Origin: Parcubacteria group bacterium GW2011_GWC2_48_17
Lineage (GTDB): Bacteria > Patescibacteriota > Minisyncoccia > Phycocordibacterales > UBA10002
NCBI GenBank assembly: GCA_001003605.1
Contig: LCPL01000009.1
Location: 1 to 57,233, forward strand
Reading direction: 5' to 3'
DNA length: 57,233 nucleotides
A program made the position numbers and the translations under genes. Position 1 is the stretch's first letter. Every line of letters starts with the position of its first letter. Shown here in pieces: positions 5,852-57,057 of the stretch. Under the pieces are notes generated by a model. The model did not search any database and was not told where the DNA came from. It saw only the letters and a list, made by a program, of their open reading frames with translations.

Positions 5852-5956
5852 GAAAGTAGAAAGTAGCTAGTAGAAAGTAGTTAATAGGCAAGAAAGAACC
5901 GCGCGAAAGACGTGGTTTTTCCTTCTACCTTCTACTCTCTACCTTCTACCGACTTA
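5852..5956. repeat. short-word junction repeat, GTAGAAAG type
   Basis: GTAGAAAGTAGCTAGTAG in one cluster and CTTCTACCTTCTACTCTCTA in the facing cluster, between the convergent LysM-M23 and comM genes. The arms can pair, so this may serve as a bidirectional terminator. Confidence 0.65.
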
Positions 5957-13682: not shown

Positions 13683-15167
13683 CTACGACACCCAGTGTCT
13701 TTTTCGTATCGCTTGCAGGGTCTTTTCTTCCTCTTTTTCCTTGCTCTCTTTAGCGCTCTTACCCCGCTTCTCAAGCTCTTTTTCAGGCAAAGCGTATAGC
13801 TCTAATGCCATCTTTTCCAAATAATCGGCTGTATTTTTGGCTGGGTCGTCAAGAACTTCTTCTAAAAGCGCATGCAATATATGGCCTATCTTCGGCCCCG
13901 GAGCAGTCTTCGTAAGTTCAAGGATTCTTCCTCCATTTATCTTGAGCATTCCCACAGATAGTGGGTCCCGCATAACCTCGTCAATCATTGAGTGATATTT
14001 TCGAAGCCTGTACGGGCTTTCTTTTGGTCGTCCTGTGCCTATTCTATCGCAGGCCCTAACGTCCATAAGGTTCCAAACATGTTCTTTCCCCACCCTATTT
14101 ACAATACGCCGCACCGCTGAATGCGTTATCTGTTCAGTGTCCGAGAAAAACATATGCCAACGGACAAGAGTGGTCACAATGTCGGTCATTTTTCTTGGAA
14201 AGGCAAGACGAGCCATAATCTTTGCGGCAATTTTTGCTCCAACCACATCGTGTCCATAAAACGTCCAATCTTTCTTTTCCTCTGACCAACGTCTGGTTGC
14301 GGGCTTTCCGATATCATGCAACAACGCGGAAAGCCGTGTTTCAAGAGGAAATTCCTTTTTAGCCGCATGTTCGATTGTTCGTAGCATGTGTTCAAACACA
14401 TCGAATGAATGCGCCTTGTTCTGCGCCACTCCGATTCCCTCTTCGAGTTCTGGCGCGATATATTTGAGCAATCCCAATTTTTGGCTAAGTATCAAGCCAA
14501 TATGAGGCCGTGGGGACATAATAATCCGGATAAACTCATCGCGTATACGTTCCGCGGCCATTTCTTTTATGTGTTTTGCGTTTAAGGCGATGGCGTCTCC
14601 CGTGGTTGAATCAATTGTAAAATCAAGCTCTACCGCTATTCTAACGGCCCGTAGCATACGCAGAGCATCCTCACTAAAGCGACTTTCAGGGTCCCCAACC
14701 GTCTGAATAGTTTTCTTTTTGATATCAATTTGACCGCTGAAAATATCGACGATGTCTCCCGGTAATTTAAGCGCTATCGCGTTGATTGTAAAATCTCGGC
14801 GTTTCAAATCATCTTCCAGTTTTGCGCCCCACGTTACAGAGTCAGGTCTGCGCTTGTCGGAATAATTTCCTTCCAAACGATACGGCGTTACCTCTATCAC
14901 TTTCAGCGTTTCATCATCGGTATTTTCCGTCACTACTCCGACAGTTCCATAGTCATTTTCATAGAACGTATTGGGGAATGAGGCCACAATTTCCTCTGGT
15001 TTTGCGTTGGTAGTTATATCCCAATCCTTTGGCCTGCGTCCGACCAATAGATCTCGCACACATCCCCCTATTAAATACGCCTGAAAGCCCTTGTTTTCAA
15101 GAGTTCTAGCTACTTCCGCAACCTCTTTTGGAACAGATAGCTTCGCACTGTCTTCAGTCTTTTTCAC
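13683..15167 (-). CDS. cca: CCA tRNA nucleotidyltransferase with HD domain
   Basis: About 494 aa. Adds or repairs the 3' CCA of tRNAs from CTP and ATP. N-terminal nucleotidyltransferase head: FQAYLIGGCVRDLLVGRRP then KDWDITTNAKPEEI with the catalytic DxD-like pair; neck RRDFTINAIAL; RNA-binding helices EDALRMLRAVRIAVEL; HD motif LLHDIGKPATRR. The open frame runs to 15494 but would be antisense to two tRNA genes, so the GTG at 15167 is taken as start; no in-frame ATG lies between. Three of the four tRNAs in the window lack encoded CCA, so the enzyme is needed for their maturation. Confidence 0.93.
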   Translation of the reverse strand: MKKTEDSAKLSVPKEVAEVARTLENKGFQAYLIGGCVRDLLVGRRPKDWDITTNAKPEEIVASFPNTFYENDYGTVGVVTENTDDETLKVIEVTPYRLEGNYSDKRRPDSVTWGAKLEDDLKRRDFTINAIALKLPGDIVDIFSGQIDIKKKTIQTVGDPESRFSEDALRMLRAVRIAVELDFTIDSTTGDAIALNAKHIKEMAAERIRDEFIRIIMSPRPHIGLILSQKLGLLKYIAPELEEGIGVAQNKAHSFDVFEHMLRTIEHAAKKEFPLETRLSALLHDIGKPATRRWSEEKKDWTFYGHDVVGAKIAAKIMARLAFPRKMTDIVTTLVRWHMFFSDTEQITHSAVRRIVNRVGKEHVWNLMDVRACDRIGTGRPKESPYRLRKYHSMIDEVMRDPLSVGMLKINGGRILELTKTAPGPKIGHILHALLEEVLDDPAKNTADYLEKMALELYALPEKELEKRGKSAKESKEKEEEKTLQAIRKRHWVS

Positions 15168-15306
15168 TCCGATATTGTAGTATCTCTTTTGAAATTCGCC
15201 TAATTTAGCGTATGATTTAAGCTTAGTCTCATGACCAGTAAGATTCCAAGCTGTGTTAAACACAGCTCGAACGTCGAAGGTAAGTTTATAGCGTCTGCAA
15301 TAAGGT

Positions 15307-50534: not shown

Positions 50535-50906
50535 GCTCTAATCATCGCACGCTGTATTCAATCTGTCGTCAGTATTTACACGATAAGCTGTGTATAGCTC
50601 CGAAGTTTAGGAGGGAAAGCGACGAAATATTGAAGCCAGCAGGCCGAAAGACGGAACCTCTCAATTTTGATATCATTAGAACCTGTGCACTTCAGCCTGT
50701 TCTCGCATTTTCTCCTCTGTAATTCCCACCCCTCGGAGAGACTCTGGATAAACTCCGGCGGGAATCCAGAGCTATACTGCATAACATGGATTCCTCTCTC
50801 CGATCTGGTCGAGGACAAGTTTTCAGTGGAATGACACCGAAAGTTTATACAGTGCGTAAGTCCTAATTATGTTAATGCGTGTGGTTCTATAGTTAGCTTT
50901 CATTCC
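50535..50906. other. divergent intergenic region between the secreted pair and the pilus operon
   Basis: About 370 bp. An 80-codon minus-strand frame here has no recognisable features. It should contain both promoters; a TATAGT at 50888-50893 is 14 bp before the pilB ATG, without a convincing -35. Confidence 0.4.
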
Positions 50907-52661
50907 ATGTTTATAGAAGAAAAACAACTGCGGGAATTCATCAAAGATTCTGGTCTCGTAACCCGAGCTGACTTTCTGCTCGCTGAAAAAGAAGCCGACG
51001 AGAAAAAGCAGAGCGTTGGAGGCATTTTGGTGCTTAGAGGAAAGGTGAATGAAGATGACCTGCGCAAAATGCAGGCATACCTCCTAGGCATTCCGTTTGT
51101 CGACCTCAAACAGCAAAAAATAGAGTTCGAAACCCTCTCCCTTCTACCGGAGCCAATTGCGAGAAGCCACAGCATCGTGGCTTTTAAGAGAAGTGACAAG
51201 ATCCTTGAGGTGGCGATGCTAGATACAGATGACCTTGCCGCTATTGATTTCATAAGAAAGAAAACGAATTTAAAAATTCTACCTCGGCTTACAGACACAG
51301 CGTCAATTAGATCCGCAATCTTACAGTATCAAAAGTCTCTTAAGGCTGAATTTGGCGACCTAATAAAAGAGGAAACGGATGTTTTAAAACAGATTCCAGA
51401 AGCTGGCTCTGACAAGCTTACGAGCGCGGCCGACCTCAAAAAGTTGGCTGAAGACGTTCCTGTCATCCGCGTAGTTGACACGCTCCTCAAGCACGCTGTT
51501 TTACAGAGGGCCTCTGATATTCACATCGAGGCGCAGGAAAAGGAGCTCATCGTTCGCTACCGCATTGATGGGATTTTGCACGACGCGATGATTCTTCCGA
51601 AGCACGTCGCGAGTAGCATAGTCGCGAGAATAAAAGTCTTGGCAAGCCTGAAACTTGACGAAAAACGCCTCCCGCAAGACGGGCGATTCAAGATAGAAAC
51701 CAGCGGAGATAAGGTATCACTCCGCGTGTCCATTCTGCCAACCTACTTCGGAGAAAAGGTTGTAATGCGCCTCTTGCGAGAAGGCGCGTCTGGGTTCACG
51801 CTAGAAGTGCTTGGCTTTCATGGCGAAGCATTAGAGCGTGTCCATGAATCCCTTAAGCTTTCAACAGGTATGATACTTACGACTGGTCCTACCGGTTCAG
51901 GAAAGACAACGACTCTCTATACTATGATTGACATACTCAATACCACAGATGTGAATATTTCCACTGTTGAGGACCCAATTGAATATCAGATGCCGCGTGT
52001 CAATCAGACCCAAGTAAAGCCCGAGATAGGATTTACTTTCTCCAGCGGCCTTCGTTCTCTTGTGCGCCAGGACCCGGATATCATCATGGTCGGAGAGATT
52101 CGCGATAATGAAACCGCTTCGCTCGCCATCAACGCGTCTCTCACAGGGCACCTTGTGCTTTCAACGCTCCATACGAATTCTGCCGCCGGGGCCATTCCTC
52201 GCCTTATCGATATGAAAGTCGAGCCGTTTCTTATTGTTTCCACGGTGAATGTTATCATTGCCCAGCGTCTCGTAAGAAAGCTTTGCGACACTAAGGAAAA
52301 ATATTTTTTGAATAAAGCTGGCATCGCGACTCTTGGCAAGTCGGTCGACATGGAGCGCGTTCTTAAGGCTCTTAAATCTGGGAAAATAGTTCCCGAGTCC
52401 GCAGTATGGGAGAAAGTCGCTTTTTATCGGCCACGACCCGCGACAGACGCTCCTGATGGGTTTTTGAGTCGAATTGGCATTCATGAAGTGATGAAAGTAA
52501 CACAATCTATCCGAGAGCTCATCATCAAAGGAGGGACATCCGCGGACATTGAAGCGCAGGCAAAAAAAGAAGGTATGCTCACCATGCTGGAAGACGGCAT
52601 ATTTAAGTGCGTGCAGGGACACACGACAATTGAAGAAGTACTCCGGGTGGTGTCGGAGTAA
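50907..52661 (+). CDS. pilB: type IV pilus assembly ATPase PilB
   Basis: 584 aa. Extension motor of the type IV pilus. N-terminal MshEN-type domain (LREFIKDSGLVTRADFLLAE), then a GspE core: IRVVDTLLKHAVLQRASDIH, Walker A LTTGPTGSGKTTTLYTM, Asp box EDPIEYQMPRVNQTQVKPEI, Walker B MVGEIRDNETASLAI, His box GHLVLSTLHTNSA. The usual zinc tetracysteine loop is lost: only one Cys (RKLCDTKEKYF) is present. First gene of a six-gene operon. Confidence 0.95.
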   Translation: MFIEEKQLREFIKDSGLVTRADFLLAEKEADEKKQSVGGILVLRGKVNEDDLRKMQAYLLGIPFVDLKQQKIEFETLSLLPEPIARSHSIVAFKRSDKILEVAMLDTDDLAAIDFIRKKTNLKILPRLTDTASIRSAILQYQKSLKAEFGDLIKEETDVLKQIPEAGSDKLTSAADLKKLAEDVPVIRVVDTLLKHAVLQRASDIHIEAQEKELIVRYRIDGILHDAMILPKHVASSIVARIKVLASLKLDEKRLPQDGRFKIETSGDKVSLRVSILPTYFGEKVVMRLLREGASGFTLEVLGFHGEALERVHESLKLSTGMILTTGPTGSGKTTTLYTMIDILNTTDVNISTVEDPIEYQMPRVNQTQVKPEIGFTFSSGLRSLVRQDPDIIMVGEIRDNETASLAINASLTGHLVLSTLHTNSAAGAIPRLIDMKVEPFLIVSTVNVIIAQRLVRKLCDTKEKYFLNKAGIATLGKSVDMERVLKALKSGKIVPESAVWEKVAFYRPRPATDAPDGFLSRIGIHEVMKVTQSIRELIIKGGTSADIEAQAKKEGMLTMLEDGIFKCVQGHTTIEEVLRVVSE

Positions 52662-52748
52662 CTGAATAACTGATAACATATAACAGAATCACAGAAGTCA
52701 TTTTTCTTTCGGTTGGTTATTCAGTGATAAGTTATCCAGTCATTTGTT
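52661..52748. repeat. short-word junction repeat, AACTGATAAC type
   Basis: CTGAATAACTGATAACATAT faces TTATTCAGTGATAAGTTATC between pilB and pilC; arms pair over about 18 nt. Confidence 0.65.
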
Positions 52749-53972
52749 ATGCATTTTAAGTATAAAGCACAAAAGACTTCCGGCGATTTCTATGAGGGGG
52801 AGCGCGAAGCGGCTGATAAGTTTGCGCTCGCGCGCGAGTTGCACAAAGAGGGGGAAACACTCATCAGCGCTTTTGAATTAAGCGCCGGAGGAGTAGGGCA
52901 TGGATTCAATCTGGAGAAGATATTCTCGTTTATTGGGCGCGTCTCTATACATGACAAGATAACCTTCACTAGAAATCTAGGAGGTATGCTTGCGGCAGGG
53001 CTTACCGTATCACGAGCCCTTAATGTGCTGGAGCGCCAAACACATTCCCGAAGATTTAAGCTGATTATCGAAGGGTTATCAGGCAAAATCAGCACGGGGG
53101 AGAGTCTTAGCCAAGCATTTACGGAATACAGCAATGTCTTTCCGCAGATAGTCATCTCGATGGTAAAAGCTGGGGAAGAAGGAGGGAATCTTTCGACGTC
53201 GCTTCTCGCGGTTGGAGACCAACTTGACAAAGCGTACGCGCTTCAACGGAAGATAAAAGGAGCGATGATGTATCCTGCTATCGTCGTTTCGGTAATGCTT
53301 CTCGTAGGCGCAGTGATGTTCATATACGTCGTTCCAGGACTCACGAACGCATTCAAAGAGTTCAACGTTGACCTTCCGATTTCCACTAAAATTGTCATTG
53401 CCATAAGCGATTTTATGCAAGCGCATTTAATTCTCGGCATTGTCCTTGCTGCCGGATTTTTCGGCGGGCTATGGATAACCGCGAAAAGTCCGCCCGGAAA
53501 ACGCTTTATTGATTTCGCTACACTGCATATCCCAGTCATCAGTCCAATTATTCGCGAGGCGAATGCCGCCAGAGTGGGACAAACGCTCTCTTCGCTTCTT
53601 TCTTCCGGAGTAGAAGTGGTATCAGCGCTTCTCATCACTGCCGATGTTCTTTCAAATGAGTATTATAGGGAGGTACTTTTCCAAGCTCGTGAGGCTGTTG
53701 AGCGAGGCGAACCTATGTCCGGCATATTTCGCGAACATGAGAATATCTTTCCTCCGTTTCTTTCTGAAATGGTGGCGGTCGGCGAAGAAACAGGAAAACT
53801 ATCAGGCATGCTGAAAGAAACGGGAATATTTTTTGAGGCGGAAGTGGAGCAGAGGACAAAAAATCTCTCTACGATAATCGAACCCGCTCTCATGGTTGTG
53901 GTTGGTGTCGCGGTCGGTTTCTTCGCCGTCGCAATGATATCTCCGGCGTATTCGCTGATGAACTCTATTTAG
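52749..53972 (+). CDS. pilC: type IV pilus inner-membrane platform protein PilC
   Basis: 407 aa. Two GspF domains: TFTRNLGGMLAAGLTVSRAL with SRRFKLIIEGLSGKISTGES, and VGQTLSSLLSSGVEVVSALL with VERGEPMSGIFREHENIFPP. Three membrane helices (about 170-195, 225-245, 375-400). Couples PilB to the prepilins. Confidence 0.95.
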   Translation: MHFKYKAQKTSGDFYEGEREAADKFALARELHKEGETLISAFELSAGGVGHGFNLEKIFSFIGRVSIHDKITFTRNLGGMLAAGLTVSRALNVLERQTHSRRFKLIIEGLSGKISTGESLSQAFTEYSNVFPQIVISMVKAGEEGGNLSTSLLAVGDQLDKAYALQRKIKGAMMYPAIVVSVMLLVGAVMFIYVVPGLTNAFKEFNVDLPISTKIVIAISDFMQAHLILGIVLAAGFFGGLWITAKSPPGKRFIDFATLHIPVISPIIREANAARVGQTLSSLLSSGVEVVSALLITADVLSNEYYREVLFQAREAVERGEPMSGIFREHENIFPPFLSEMVAVGEETGKLSGMLKETGIFFEAEVEQRTKNLSTIIEPALMVVVGVAVGFFAVAMISPAYSLMNSI

Positions 53973-54058
53973 CTTATTAGCTGTTTAGCTTTCTAGCTTA
54001 CTAGGTAACGCATGTTCACCGTCTGCCATGTTTATCCTAAACAGCTAGTAAGCTTTTT
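53973..54058. repeat. short-word junction repeat, TAGCTTACTAG type
   Basis: TTAGCTGTTTAGCTTTCTAG and facing CTAAACAGCTAGTAAGCTTT between pilC and the first prepilin gene; strongly complementary arms with a 45-nt spacer. Confidence 0.75.
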
Positions 54059-54511
54059 ATGAAAGGTTTTACTTTACTCGAAATACTGTTAGCCCTTGGT
54101 ATCGCCGCGGTCGTTACGGTAATCAGCGTAACGTCACTTTCCAATTTCAATAAGGGTAAGGCGCTTGGTATTGAAACCGAAAAAGTATTTTCACTCCTTA
54201 CTAAAGCTCGTTCGCTTACGCTTGCCGCGAAAGATGGATTAAGTTACGGCGTGCATTTTGAAGAAAGAAAGGCAGTATTGTTTTCTGGAGTAAGCTATAG
54301 CGCTAACGCTTCCACCAATCAAATCCAGCTACTCAATGATGAAGTGAAGATATCCACCATAGCGCTTACAGGCGGAGGAGCGGAAGTACTCTTTAAGAAG
54401 CTATCTGGCGCCACGGACCAAAATGGGACCATAACGCTTGCATTGGTGCGAGACGCGAGTAAAACCAAGATTATTACGGTTGCGGGGACGGGAATAGCTT
54501 TTTCGAATTAG
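54059..54511 (+). CDS. GspH/FimT-like minor prepilin
   Basis: 150 aa. Prepilin signal MKGFTLLEILLALGIAAVV: cleavage after Gly3, Phe at +1, Glu8 at +5, then the assembly helix. The globular part (RSLTLAAKDGLSYGVHFEER, VRDASKTKIITVAGTGIAF) is a GspH-like beta domain. Probably a minor or tip pilin. Confidence 0.9.
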   Translation: MKGFTLLEILLALGIAAVVTVISVTSLSNFNKGKALGIETEKVFSLLTKARSLTLAAKDGLSYGVHFEERKAVLFSGVSYSANASTNQIQLLNDEVKISTIALTGGGAEVLFKKLSGATDQNGTITLALVRDASKTKIITVAGTGIAFSN

Positions 54512-54590
54512 GAAGTATGAATTAAGAATTATGCACAGAACAAAAAACAAATTTAAATTCTCCTTAATTCATAATTCATGATTCAGTATT
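54512..54590. repeat. short-word junction repeat, TAATTCATAATT type
   Basis: AGTATGAATTAAGAATTATG and facing CTTAATTCATAATTCATGAT. The last part is translated as the leader of the next prepilin (MIQYSS). Same words encode residues 89-100 of RsmA. Confidence 0.7.
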
Positions 54591-55075
54591 CATCTTCAAA
54601 AGGTATCAGTCTAGTTGAGGTTATCATCGGAACCGCTCTTATCCTGCTCTCTCTTACAGGACTTACCACCGCCTATTCTTTCTATCTAAAAGCTGGACTC
54701 CAGAATACCGACAACCTCAAGGCGGCATTTCTTCTGCAAGAAGGAGTTGAGGCGGCGACACTCATTCGCGATGATAACTGGGGCGCCTTTGCTTCACTTG
54801 CGACAGGCACTCCATACTATCTTTCCTGGAACAATTCAAAGTGGAATACAACCACGACCCCGCTTATTATTGACGGAGTCTTCCGAAGGACTGTTTTACT
54901 TGAAGATGTCTATCGCCGAAACCTCGGTAAAGACATTGTAGAAATAACATCTGGAGACGCGAAATCACTTGACGCTGGAACAAAAAAAGTTACCGTGCAT
55001 GTTTTTATAGTGAACAGCGCAACTACAACGCTAGATAAACAGATGGAAACGTACCTCGCCAATCTCTTCGAGTAG
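54578..55075 (+). CDS. PilV-like minor prepilin
   Basis: 165 aa. Leader MIQYSSSKG, cleavage after Gly9, ISLVEVIIGTALILLSLTGL with Glu14 at +5. The globular domain begins LLQEGVEAATLIRDDNWG, a segment typical of PilV-like minor pilins. Confidence 0.9.
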   Translation: MIQYSSSKGISLVEVIIGTALILLSLTGLTTAYSFYLKAGLQNTDNLKAAFLLQEGVEAATLIRDDNWGAFASLATGTPYYLSWNNSKWNTTTTPLIIDGVFRRTVLLEDVYRRNLGKDIVEITSGDAKSLDAGTKKVTVHVFIVNSATTTLDKQMETYLANLFE

Positions 55076-55172
55076 CGTCTAGCGATTAGCGTTTAGCGTG
55101 TAGTTATCAAGACTATGAAAAAAGTTGAACATTATCAGCCTTCTCTAAACGCTAAACGCTGTACGCTTTACG
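55072..55172. repeat. short-word junction repeat, TAGCGTT type, partly coding
   Basis: GTCTAGCGATTAGCGTTTAG (55077-55096) faces CTAAACGCTAAACGCTGTAC (55145-55164). The second cluster lies inside the next gene and encodes its leader (SLNAKRCTLYA). Confidence 0.75.
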
Positions 55173-55666
55173 CTGGGTTTTCCTTGGTGGAAGCGCTTTT
55201 TTATGTCGCCATATTCTCGTTTTCTCTGCTAGCTATTATGCAGACGCTCATTGTTGTTACTCGCTCGCATGGAATGCTTCGTAGCGCGCAGCGCGTGGAG
55301 CAAGAAGCGAGCATCTCCATTGAGCGAATGATTCGAGAAATCCGCGACGGAGAAAGTATAGATGACGCCGGCAGCGTGTTTAGCGCGCACCCCGGGAAGC
55401 TTCTCCTGCATAGCACAAATGTTTCCGGCCTTCCGAGAACAGTTGAATTTTCTCTTAGTGGAGGGAAACTCTCGCTAAAAGAAGATGGCGTCGCTGTCGG
55501 ACTTCTAACAAGCACGCAAACAAACATTTCGAACTTGGTGTTCCGAAAGATAAGCACTGCGCGTTCCGAGGGCGTTAAAATAGAGATGACAATGCAAAGC
55601 GGCACAAGCACCACCGCGCGGTCGGAGAATTTCAACACGACGGCGGCGCTCCGTGACTCATATTAA
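55115..55666 (+). CDS. PilW-like minor prepilin with a repeat-encoded leader
   Basis: 183 aa. The signal is MKKVEHYQPSLNAKRCTLYA then cleavage after Gly21, FSLVEALFYVAIFSFSLLAI with Glu26 at +5. The 20-residue leader is unusually long because residues 10-20 are the translation of a TAAACGC word repeat. The globular part includes EQEASISIERMIREIRDGES. Confidence 0.9.
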   Translation: MKKVEHYQPSLNAKRCTLYAGFSLVEALFYVAIFSFSLLAIMQTLIVVTRSHGMLRSAQRVEQEASISIERMIREIRDGESIDDAGSVFSAHPGKLLLHSTNVSGLPRTVEFSLSGGKLSLKEDGVAVGLLTSTQTNISNLVFRKISTARSEGVKIEMTMQSGTSTTARSENFNTTAALRDSY

Positions 55667-55668
55667 AC

Positions 55669-57018
55669 ATGTATAACGCAAAACATATAACGCAAAACGG
55701 CAGAAGAAAAGAGCATTTTTTCGCGCTACACGCTACACGCTACACGCTACACGCTCATCAAGGGCAGGCTATTGTTCTCGCCGCCATCTTCTTTTTGGTC
55801 ATTTCCGTCACAGTCGGTCTCGGTATAGTGAATCCAGTCATAAACCAAATTGAGTCTGTGCGGGGAGTTGCAAGTGGCGCGGAGAGTCTCTACGCCGCAG
55901 ACGCAGCCGCGCAGGACGTGGTCTATCGTTTGATTAATGGCATGAGTGTAGATGATGTAGAGACAATAAGTATTGGCGGAGCTTCTGGAACGGCGACAAC
56001 TACCGCGATTTTGGACGGCAAAGAAGTCCTTTCTTCTGGGAACAAGAATCGTTATGTCAGGAAAAATAAGATGAAACTGCTTACTGGGAGCGGTATAACT
56101 TTCAACTACGGTCTTCAAGCGGGAGAGGGCGGCATCAATCTTAAAAACAGCGCGCTTATCGTTGGGAATGTGTACTCTAGTGGTCCCATCACAGGAGAAA
56201 ACAGTAATTTGATTAAAGGTGACGCGATTTCTGCCGGCGGAGCGGGACTTATTAACAAAGTTCATGCCACAAGTTCCGCCTATGCTCACACCATTCGTGA
56301 TTCTCAAATTGACAAAGACGCCCATTATCAGGTTATTTCCGGAACCACGGTGGGCGGCACTCTGTATCCCGGAAGTCCTGACCAGGCCACTTCAAGTTTG
56401 CCCATTTCCGACGCTCAAATTACGCAATGGGAAAACGACGCCGCGGCTGGAGGGACGGTTACTTGCAGCGGCGGAAGTTACAACATAAGCGGCAGCGTGA
56501 CTTTGGGTCCCAAAAAGATTCCTTGCGATTTACATATTGACGGCTCCGATAAGCTCTACCTTACGGGGCCGCTGTGGGTAATCGGCGATATTCAATTTAG
56601 CAATACTTCTAAAATCGCGGTTGACGCGAGTCTCTCCGGCAAGACCGTGGCTATTATTGCCGATAATCCCTCAAACCAGACCTCAAGCAGTAAAATAACA
56701 GCGTCAAACAGCGCGGAGTTCCAAGGCGCCGGCGCCAATTCTTATGTTTTACTTATCTCCCAAAACAAAAGCGCCGAGCTTGGCGGCGGCGATGAAGCTA
56801 TAGAGGTATCAAATTCCGTGAACGGCAAGGTTCTTGTTTACGCCGGCCACGGCAAGATTGAGATTTCCAATTCCGTCAATTTAAAGGAGGTGACGGCTTA
56901 CCGAATTGATGTTAGCAACAGCGCGCAGGTCATATATGAAACAGGACTAGCGAACCTGCTATTTTCAGGCGGACCATCTGGCGGGTACTTTGTTGATTCA
57001 TGGAGAGAGGTGGAATAA
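55669..57018 (+). CDS. PilX-like pilus protein with adhesive beta domain
   Basis: 449 aa. Residues 1-31 (MYNAKHITQNGRRKEHFFAL, HATRYTLHAHQGQ) are largely encoded by word repeats at 55671-55702 and 55727-55758. A single hydrophobic helix AIVLAAIFFLVISVTVGLGI follows, then ESVRGVASGAESLYAADAAA typical of PilX-type proteins. The C-terminal half (KLYLTGPLWVIGDIQFSNTS, VNGKVLVYAGHGKIEISNSV) is a repetitive beta structure like a polymer-forming or adhesive fold. Last gene of the pilus operon. Confidence 0.85.
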   Translation: MYNAKHITQNGRRKEHFFALHATRYTLHAHQGQAIVLAAIFFLVISVTVGLGIVNPVINQIESVRGVASGAESLYAADAAAQDVVYRLINGMSVDDVETISIGGASGTATTTAILDGKEVLSSGNKNRYVRKNKMKLLTGSGITFNYGLQAGEGGINLKNSALIVGNVYSSGPITGENSNLIKGDAISAGGAGLINKVHATSSAYAHTIRDSQIDKDAHYQVISGTTVGGTLYPGSPDQATSSLPISDAQITQWENDAAAGGTVTCSGGSYNISGSVTLGPKKIPCDLHIDGSDKLYLTGPLWVIGDIQFSNTSKIAVDASLSGKTVAIIADNPSNQTSSSKITASNSAEFQGAGANSYVLLISQNKSAELGGGDEAIEVSNSVNGKVLVYAGHGKIEISNSVNLKEVTAYRIDVSNSAQVIYETGLANLLFSGGPSGGYFVDSWREVE

Positions 57019-57057
57019 AAAGCTGTTAGCTTCTAGCTGATCGTTGTTAGCTTCAAA
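57019..57057. repeat. short-word junction repeat, TAGCTTCTAGCT type
   Basis: AAAAGCTGTTAGCTTCTAGC then GTTGTTAGCTTC after the last pilus gene, just before its terminator. Confidence 0.6.

Follow-up and report, generated by a model that had tools for sequence, protein, structure and literature searches.

In the window, a stretch of 57,233 nucleotides from Parcubacteria group bacterium GW2011_GWC2_48_17 (contig LCPL01000009.1), the leaders of the PilW-like and PilX-like proteins of a type IV pilus operon are both composed largely of degenerate 7-bp repeats. We think that these belong to a proliferating class of heptad repeats, which persists where its translation product is either cut away or tolerated, and we give this reading a probability of about 60%. 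The features that matter for the argument are the following, the gene names being putative and drawn from gene order, motifs and homology:

50907..57018, plus strand: type IV pilus operon pilB, pilC, fimT/gspH-like, pilV-, pilW- and pilX-like, at the window's end
50907-52661, plus strand: pilB
52749-53972, plus strand: pilC
54059-54511, plus strand: fimT/gspH-like gene
54578, 55115 and 55669, plus strand: starts of the pilV-like, pilW-like and pilX-like genes
55073..55104, plus strand: left heptad array TAGCGTC-TAGCGAT-TAGCGTT-TAGCGTG-TAG, facing the PilW leader array
55115..55174, plus strand: PilW leader MKKVEHYQPSLNAKRCTLYA (20 residues), followed by the cleavage glycine codon at 55175-55177 (G/FSLVE)
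55145-55174, plus strand: right heptad array of PilW, (CTAAACG)2-CTGTACG-CTTTACG-CT
55669..55761, plus strand: PilX-like leader of 31 residues, MYNAKHITQNGRRKEHFFALHATRYTLHAHQ, then the G-Q-A-I-V-L core
55670..55698, plus strand: two copies of TATAACGCAAAAC, 14 bp apart, in the PilX leader
55719..55759, plus strand: near-perfect CTACACG array of about 4.5 units in the PilX leader, without local hairpin

Position, period and frame of these arrays can be read directly. The earlier note on this DNA had claimed that residues SLNAKRCTLYA of the PilW leader are encoded by repeat words and that such words make up most of the 31 N-terminal residues of the PilX-like protein, and both claims are borne out: CTCTAAACGCTAAACGCTGTACGCTTTACGCT at 55143-55174 (the right array with the two bases preceding it) encodes the former, and the TATAACGCAAAAC and CTACACG words encode most of the latter. 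The further claim, that the repeats are translated as pilin leaders, also holds. In PilW, the ATG at 55115 is followed by no other ATG, GTG or TTG until a TTG and a GTG within FSLVE, past the cleavage glycine, and on codon grounds initiation past the repeat is excluded; in PilX, the next candidate start is residue 42, within the hydrophobic segment, which makes initiation past its repeat very unlikely. Since the next starts of both genes lie past the arrays, these must be translated if mature pilins are made.

The prepilin motif (glycine at -1, a hydrophobic residue at +1, glutamate at +5 and a hydrophobic stretch) is present in PilW (G/FSLVE) and PilV (G/ISLVE), and PilX lacks the canonical E5. 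Cleavage of the leader is thus predicted from the G/FxxxE motif, and the genome encodes a prepilin peptidase, PilD, with matches to PF06750 and PF01478. PilW would then occur in an unprocessed form carrying MKKVEHYQPSLNAK and in a mature form beginning with N-methylated FSLVEALF. Upstream, the stop codon of pilV is the first triplet of the left array (55073-55104), and the right array pairs over 30 nt with 55074-55103 at 80% complementarity. The other pil junctions contain arrays of the same kind, each with its own word:

52659..52748, plus strand: pilB-pilC junction, TAACTGA-type inverted arrays
53971..54058, plus strand: pilC-fimT junction, TTAGCTG inverted arrays whose left arm has the stop TAG at its base
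54505..54592, plus strand: fimT-pilV junction, AATTATG/CATAATT inverted arrays, the right arm holding the PilV start ATG and the leader residues MIQYS
57019..57055, plus strand: TTAGCTTC-type array 3' of pilX, a weak match to the other junctions

The arrays are not confined to the operon. The window contains 17 arrays at lag 7, while the other lags from 4 to 12 give 0-3 and Markov shuffles 0-1, and a 497-kb sample of its genome (about half of the genome, in stretches of up to 20 kb) contains 175, against 13-45 at other lags, which corresponds to a density of 35 per 100 kb versus a mean of about 5 for other periods. Among 141 inverted repeats of the same sample, 36 have arms whose best period is 7; these arms measure 15-55 nt and enclose loops of 4-80 nt. 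At the same threshold, 18 were found in the real window and none in one shuffled window. Most arrays (119 of the 175) lie mainly outside open reading frames and 144 of the 175 lie no more than 150 bp from a gene end, while adjoining arrays are inverted with respect to each other in 32 of 43 pairs. With their excess of 7-bp units over other unit lengths and their mainly intergenic position near gene ends, they belong to the class of heptamer arrays. One member of this class lies away from any start codon:

5856..5949, no strand assigned: GTAGAAG inverted heptad arrays between convergent genes

The arrays have no preference for junctions bearing a start: those between tandem, convergent and divergent genes number 93, 28 and 20, for a background of 284, 81 and 71 (chi-square p=0.77).

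Studies on related genomes showed the same architecture built from different words. Arrays are present at the pil junctions of eight genomes (G000, which is that of the window, G001, G003, G004, G005, G008, G009 and G010), and the 7-mers at orthologous junctions are mostly unrelated between them. When the leaders are compared, as the earlier note had suggested, the residues are not kept, whereas an M-K-K style start and a G-F/E core are, with each genome's own heptads in between. At pilV-pilW, the left array and the leader are separated by ATGAAGAAA (MKK), kept in G003, G004 and G005, and by ATGAAGCAT in G008; the leader heptads running up to G-F-S-L-[VI]-E are GGAAATT in G003, TCGAAAT in G004 and G008, and decayed words in G005, while the heptads of this junction are ATATTCC in G001 and AATTCAT in G009. 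The distance from stop codon to core in array-bearing genomes is 85-144 nt, with three exceptions (long pilB-pilC gaps in G009 and G010, and a 9-nt pilC-fimT gap in G005). Three other genomes of the same nominal genus, with more divergent proteins, are array-poor (G006, G007 and G011): a clear lag-7 excess was looked for in them and none was found, their comparable gaps are mostly of 5-25 nt, a few junctions not being comparable and the pilW gap of G011 being longer, and their leaders there mostly have 2-4 residues (such as MK, MKK, MYR or MKYR). Many array-bearing leaders still present K or R just ahead of the glycine, as expected if an array had split a short M-K-K...R-G leader, and we infer that this is how they arose.

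The association with leaders extends across Parcubacteria. Heptad arrays were found in 24 of 136 prepilin leaders and in 36 of the first 90 nt of 2015 other open reading frames (Fisher p ~1e-14), so that such arrays are about 12 times commoner in prepilin leaders than at other gene starts, even though the control count is inflated by over-extended ORF starts. Indeed, some cytosolic control genes have an ATG 3' of the array; from their N-terminal motifs, we take them to be DnaG, GatA, ScpA and DnaE. Beyond the genus, the enrichment is 11 of 108 prepilin leaders versus 15 of 992 other starts (p ~1e-5). Among the clean examples, L110 carries MKKIFKITNYELRITNFKR-GYSLIE, in which four ATTACGA units lack a left arm, and further ones are L107 and L056; single-arm leader arrays with no facing cluster occur in other Parcubacteria. 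None of the 26 leaders of at least 14 residues contains an in-frame stop, against 19 of 26 in each of the other frames, a comparison which is partly circular, the leaders having been picked from a start codon, and which we do not use as main evidence. Bursts of heptad arrays arose in further lineages too, with 10-12 lag-7 arrays in 22 kb for both Taylorbacteria RIFCSPLOWO2_12_FULL_43_20 (L083) and a Campbellbacteria genome (L107).

Other proteins also contain translated arrays. In a type IV secretion system (T4SS) pilin (PF18895; G000:C1:40188-40565, the same as L131:188-565), the signal-peptide-like N-terminus FSLLPSTFYLLPSAFFYLLPSVSLA is encoded by CTTCTAC heptads, and its orthologues in G003 and G005 have other heptads at that place, others having ordinary hydrophobic segments. 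The earlier proposal that repeats were exapted into signal sequences therefore applies more broadly than claimed as regards their use, but to read a benefit into it, as the word exaptation implies, would go beyond the data, and tolerance suffices. PilD itself (PF06750/PF01478; L127:17362-18213, minus strand) has coding arrays at two membrane-associated positions, and across eight genomes (orthologues L231-L237) heptads lie at the same two places in mostly different words; the copy in G012 has one in-frame TAG. Finally, valyl-tRNA synthetase (PF00133; L143:5452-7626) carries a CTAAACG array (RYPLNAKRFS) in a linker just ahead of the conserved IVMPP motif. Because 7 and 3 are coprime, a stop-free heptad yields one and the same heptapeptide whichever of the three frames is read.

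Our preferred scenario would run as follows. Lineage-specific, degenerate 7-bp arrays, often an inverted pair with a loop of 4-80 nt, would have spread from junction to junction in the genomes of this Taylorbacteria-like genus. In prepilin genes they lie between the retained start codon, in or beside the loop, and the cleavage-glycine codon, and in that position the 3' arm is translated as leader. They would be kept there because the leader is cut off by prepilin peptidase, which would leave its sequence and length nearly free, provided that it contains no stops and ends near K/R-G. At times an entire cassette, with its arms, loop, start codon and leader, would be copied from one pilin gene to another. 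The RNA hairpin would be a by-product of the inverted arms and not a conserved function. Three observations count against this scenario. Our search for an agent inserting or rewriting heptads found none, Y1 transposases being present in array-poor genomes too. The polarity of the arms is fixed in every word family tested, in 34 of 34 hairpins of the window's genome (e.g., TAGCG...loop...CGCTA) and whatever the gene orientation, which is not explained by tolerance alone; and the hairpins at pilW and at the L127 cassette described below are genuinely strong. In the same hairpins, stop codons tend to fall in left-arm words and less in right-arm words.

These strong hairpins suggest a different explanation, in which an mRNA hairpin around each start codon would provide translational coupling, the downstream pilin being translated as the ribosome completes the upstream gene. 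The earlier note had placed a hairpin over the start region, which held for pilW, where the predicted fold reaches -40.3 kcal/mol (z -4.5), enclosing the AUG and carrying the pilV stop at its base, but failed for pilX, where folding gave no hairpin (z +1.0) and the two word groups have the same orientation. The fimT-pilV junction gives z -2.7, and a second prepilin cassette, that of L127 and of similar build, folds strongly (z -4.3). The folds at pilW and L127, together with the predominance of inverted neighbours among adjoining arrays, favour the coupling scheme, but the rest of the evidence does not: arrays between convergent or divergent genes are as common as expected, the orthologous pilW junctions fold weakly (z -1.1, -1.4, -0.07 and -1.8), and some leader arrays have no left arm at all. 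Moreover, a regulatory hairpin should keep its pairing by compensatory change, and variable bases in paired TAGCG units did not covary (0.517 versus 0.540 when permuted, p 0.74), in a small sample of 29 unit pairs from one word family. We therefore rejected the hairpin as a conserved translational regulator, and the earlier proposal that it could block or tune initiation is not supported; these observations argue against start-site regulation as the reason for the arrays, and we consider the coupling scheme unlikely, although the hairpin may have a local effect at pilW.

The copying of cassettes could also be given a larger role. Two different prepilin-like genes of a second cluster (L127:16500-16632 and 15118-15247, minus strand) share a 130-nt cassette which is 91% identical and comprises both arms, the loop, the start codon and the leader; likewise, arms, loop and start codon are common to pilW and pilX in G001, and to pilV and pilX in G005. 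One may imagine that the arrays of Patescibacteria are portable start-plus-leader cassettes, gained, rewritten and copied among genes for prepilins, signal peptides and membrane proteins, as the equivalence of the three frames would allow, and that slippage by a single unit toggles pilus parts. We regard this broad picture as speculative and its truth as unlikely.

Somewhat less probable in our opinion is that a transposase mobilises the arrays as classical MITE-like or REPIN-like elements, whose terminal inverted repeats would be the heptad arms. Such elements would fit the size of about 85-140 nt, the inverted arms with their fixed polarity, the many genomic copies and some copies of whole cassettes, but many arrays are partnerless, and the hairpin loops are unrelated save for one local pair (top score 57, the rest near null), for which reason dispersal of whole elements was rejected. 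A REP-associated Y1 transposase was also rejected as driver: PF01797 is found in 12 of 13 genomes of the genus, array-poor ones included, and Y1 transposases do not follow array density. A conserved sequence, terminal inverted repeats and a matching transposase were not found together. A separate repeat, TAGGACTTACGC, forms facing pairs about 110-145 bp apart (L060, L115, L130, L132 and L083), in relatives and in other stretches of the window's genome, and these pairs resemble the two termini of a small mobile element; in the window the repeat occurs once, at 50854-50865, upstream of pilB.

Least probable is that the leader arrays are contingency loci, in which gain or loss of one heptad shifts the frame, 7 not being a multiple of 3, and switches the pilin off or on: near-perfect tandem units do exist within leaders (about 4.5 CTACACG in PilX, four ATTACGA in L110), and the copy number of TTAGCTG at the pilC-fimT junction is higher in G009 than in the window's genome, but many leader arrays are too degenerate for ready slippage, all 26 leaders of at least 14 residues are open from the chosen start (partly by construction), and most arrays lie in noncoding DNA.

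Tandem repeats translated within a cleaved signal sequence have a precedent in the opa genes of Neisseria, whose coding repeats are perfect pentamers and phase-variable. The pilin arrays resemble them in being translated within a leader whose cleavage is here predicted, but they consist of heptads and a role for slippage is hypothetical. Heptamer direct repeats of the word TAACTGA have been described in marine Beggiatoaceae, Cyanobacteria and Bacteroidetes (PMC4679880). As there, we find tandem 7-mers, mostly intergenic and near starts, with related words and occasional arrays translated at protein ends, and the word of the pilB-pilC junction is TAACTGA itself. The repeats of that study use one word, which is in direct orientation apart from one inverted case in the main genome, whereas ours comprise many words, mostly in inverted pairs (32 of 43 neighbours), occur in Patescibacteria and have a strong link with prepilin leaders; they are thus not TAACTGA repeats in the strict sense. 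In Geobacter, multi-copy heptanucleotide elements of four or five tandem units have been proposed as regulatory sites (PMC2700814); they form GC-rich or fixed-consensus families, and the passages that we consulted report no association with cleaved leaders. Rickettsia palindromic elements, which are short (about 150 bp) and inserted in frame at tolerated protein sites (reviewed in PMC10969869), conserve their sequence and peptide, whereas the arrays here share period and arm symmetry but not their words, and within coding sequence they favour a cleaved leader. In the literature that we searched, no paper tied heptad repeats to prepilin leaders or to Parcubacteria, nor did we find the pattern of different words at the same site or the link with signal peptides; bacterial heptamer repeats as such are known, and their link with prepilin leaders is undescribed there.

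For the annotation of Patescibacteria, starts near heptad arrays need care: cytosolic genes begin after the array and prepilin genes before it. The host bacterium has a very small genome, and in such reduced genomes cleaved prepilin leaders and signal peptides would be the favoured coding refuges of proliferating repeats, sites where the repeat architecture persists while the sequence is swapped species by species. They may thus provide a testable system for studying how short repeats enter proteins.
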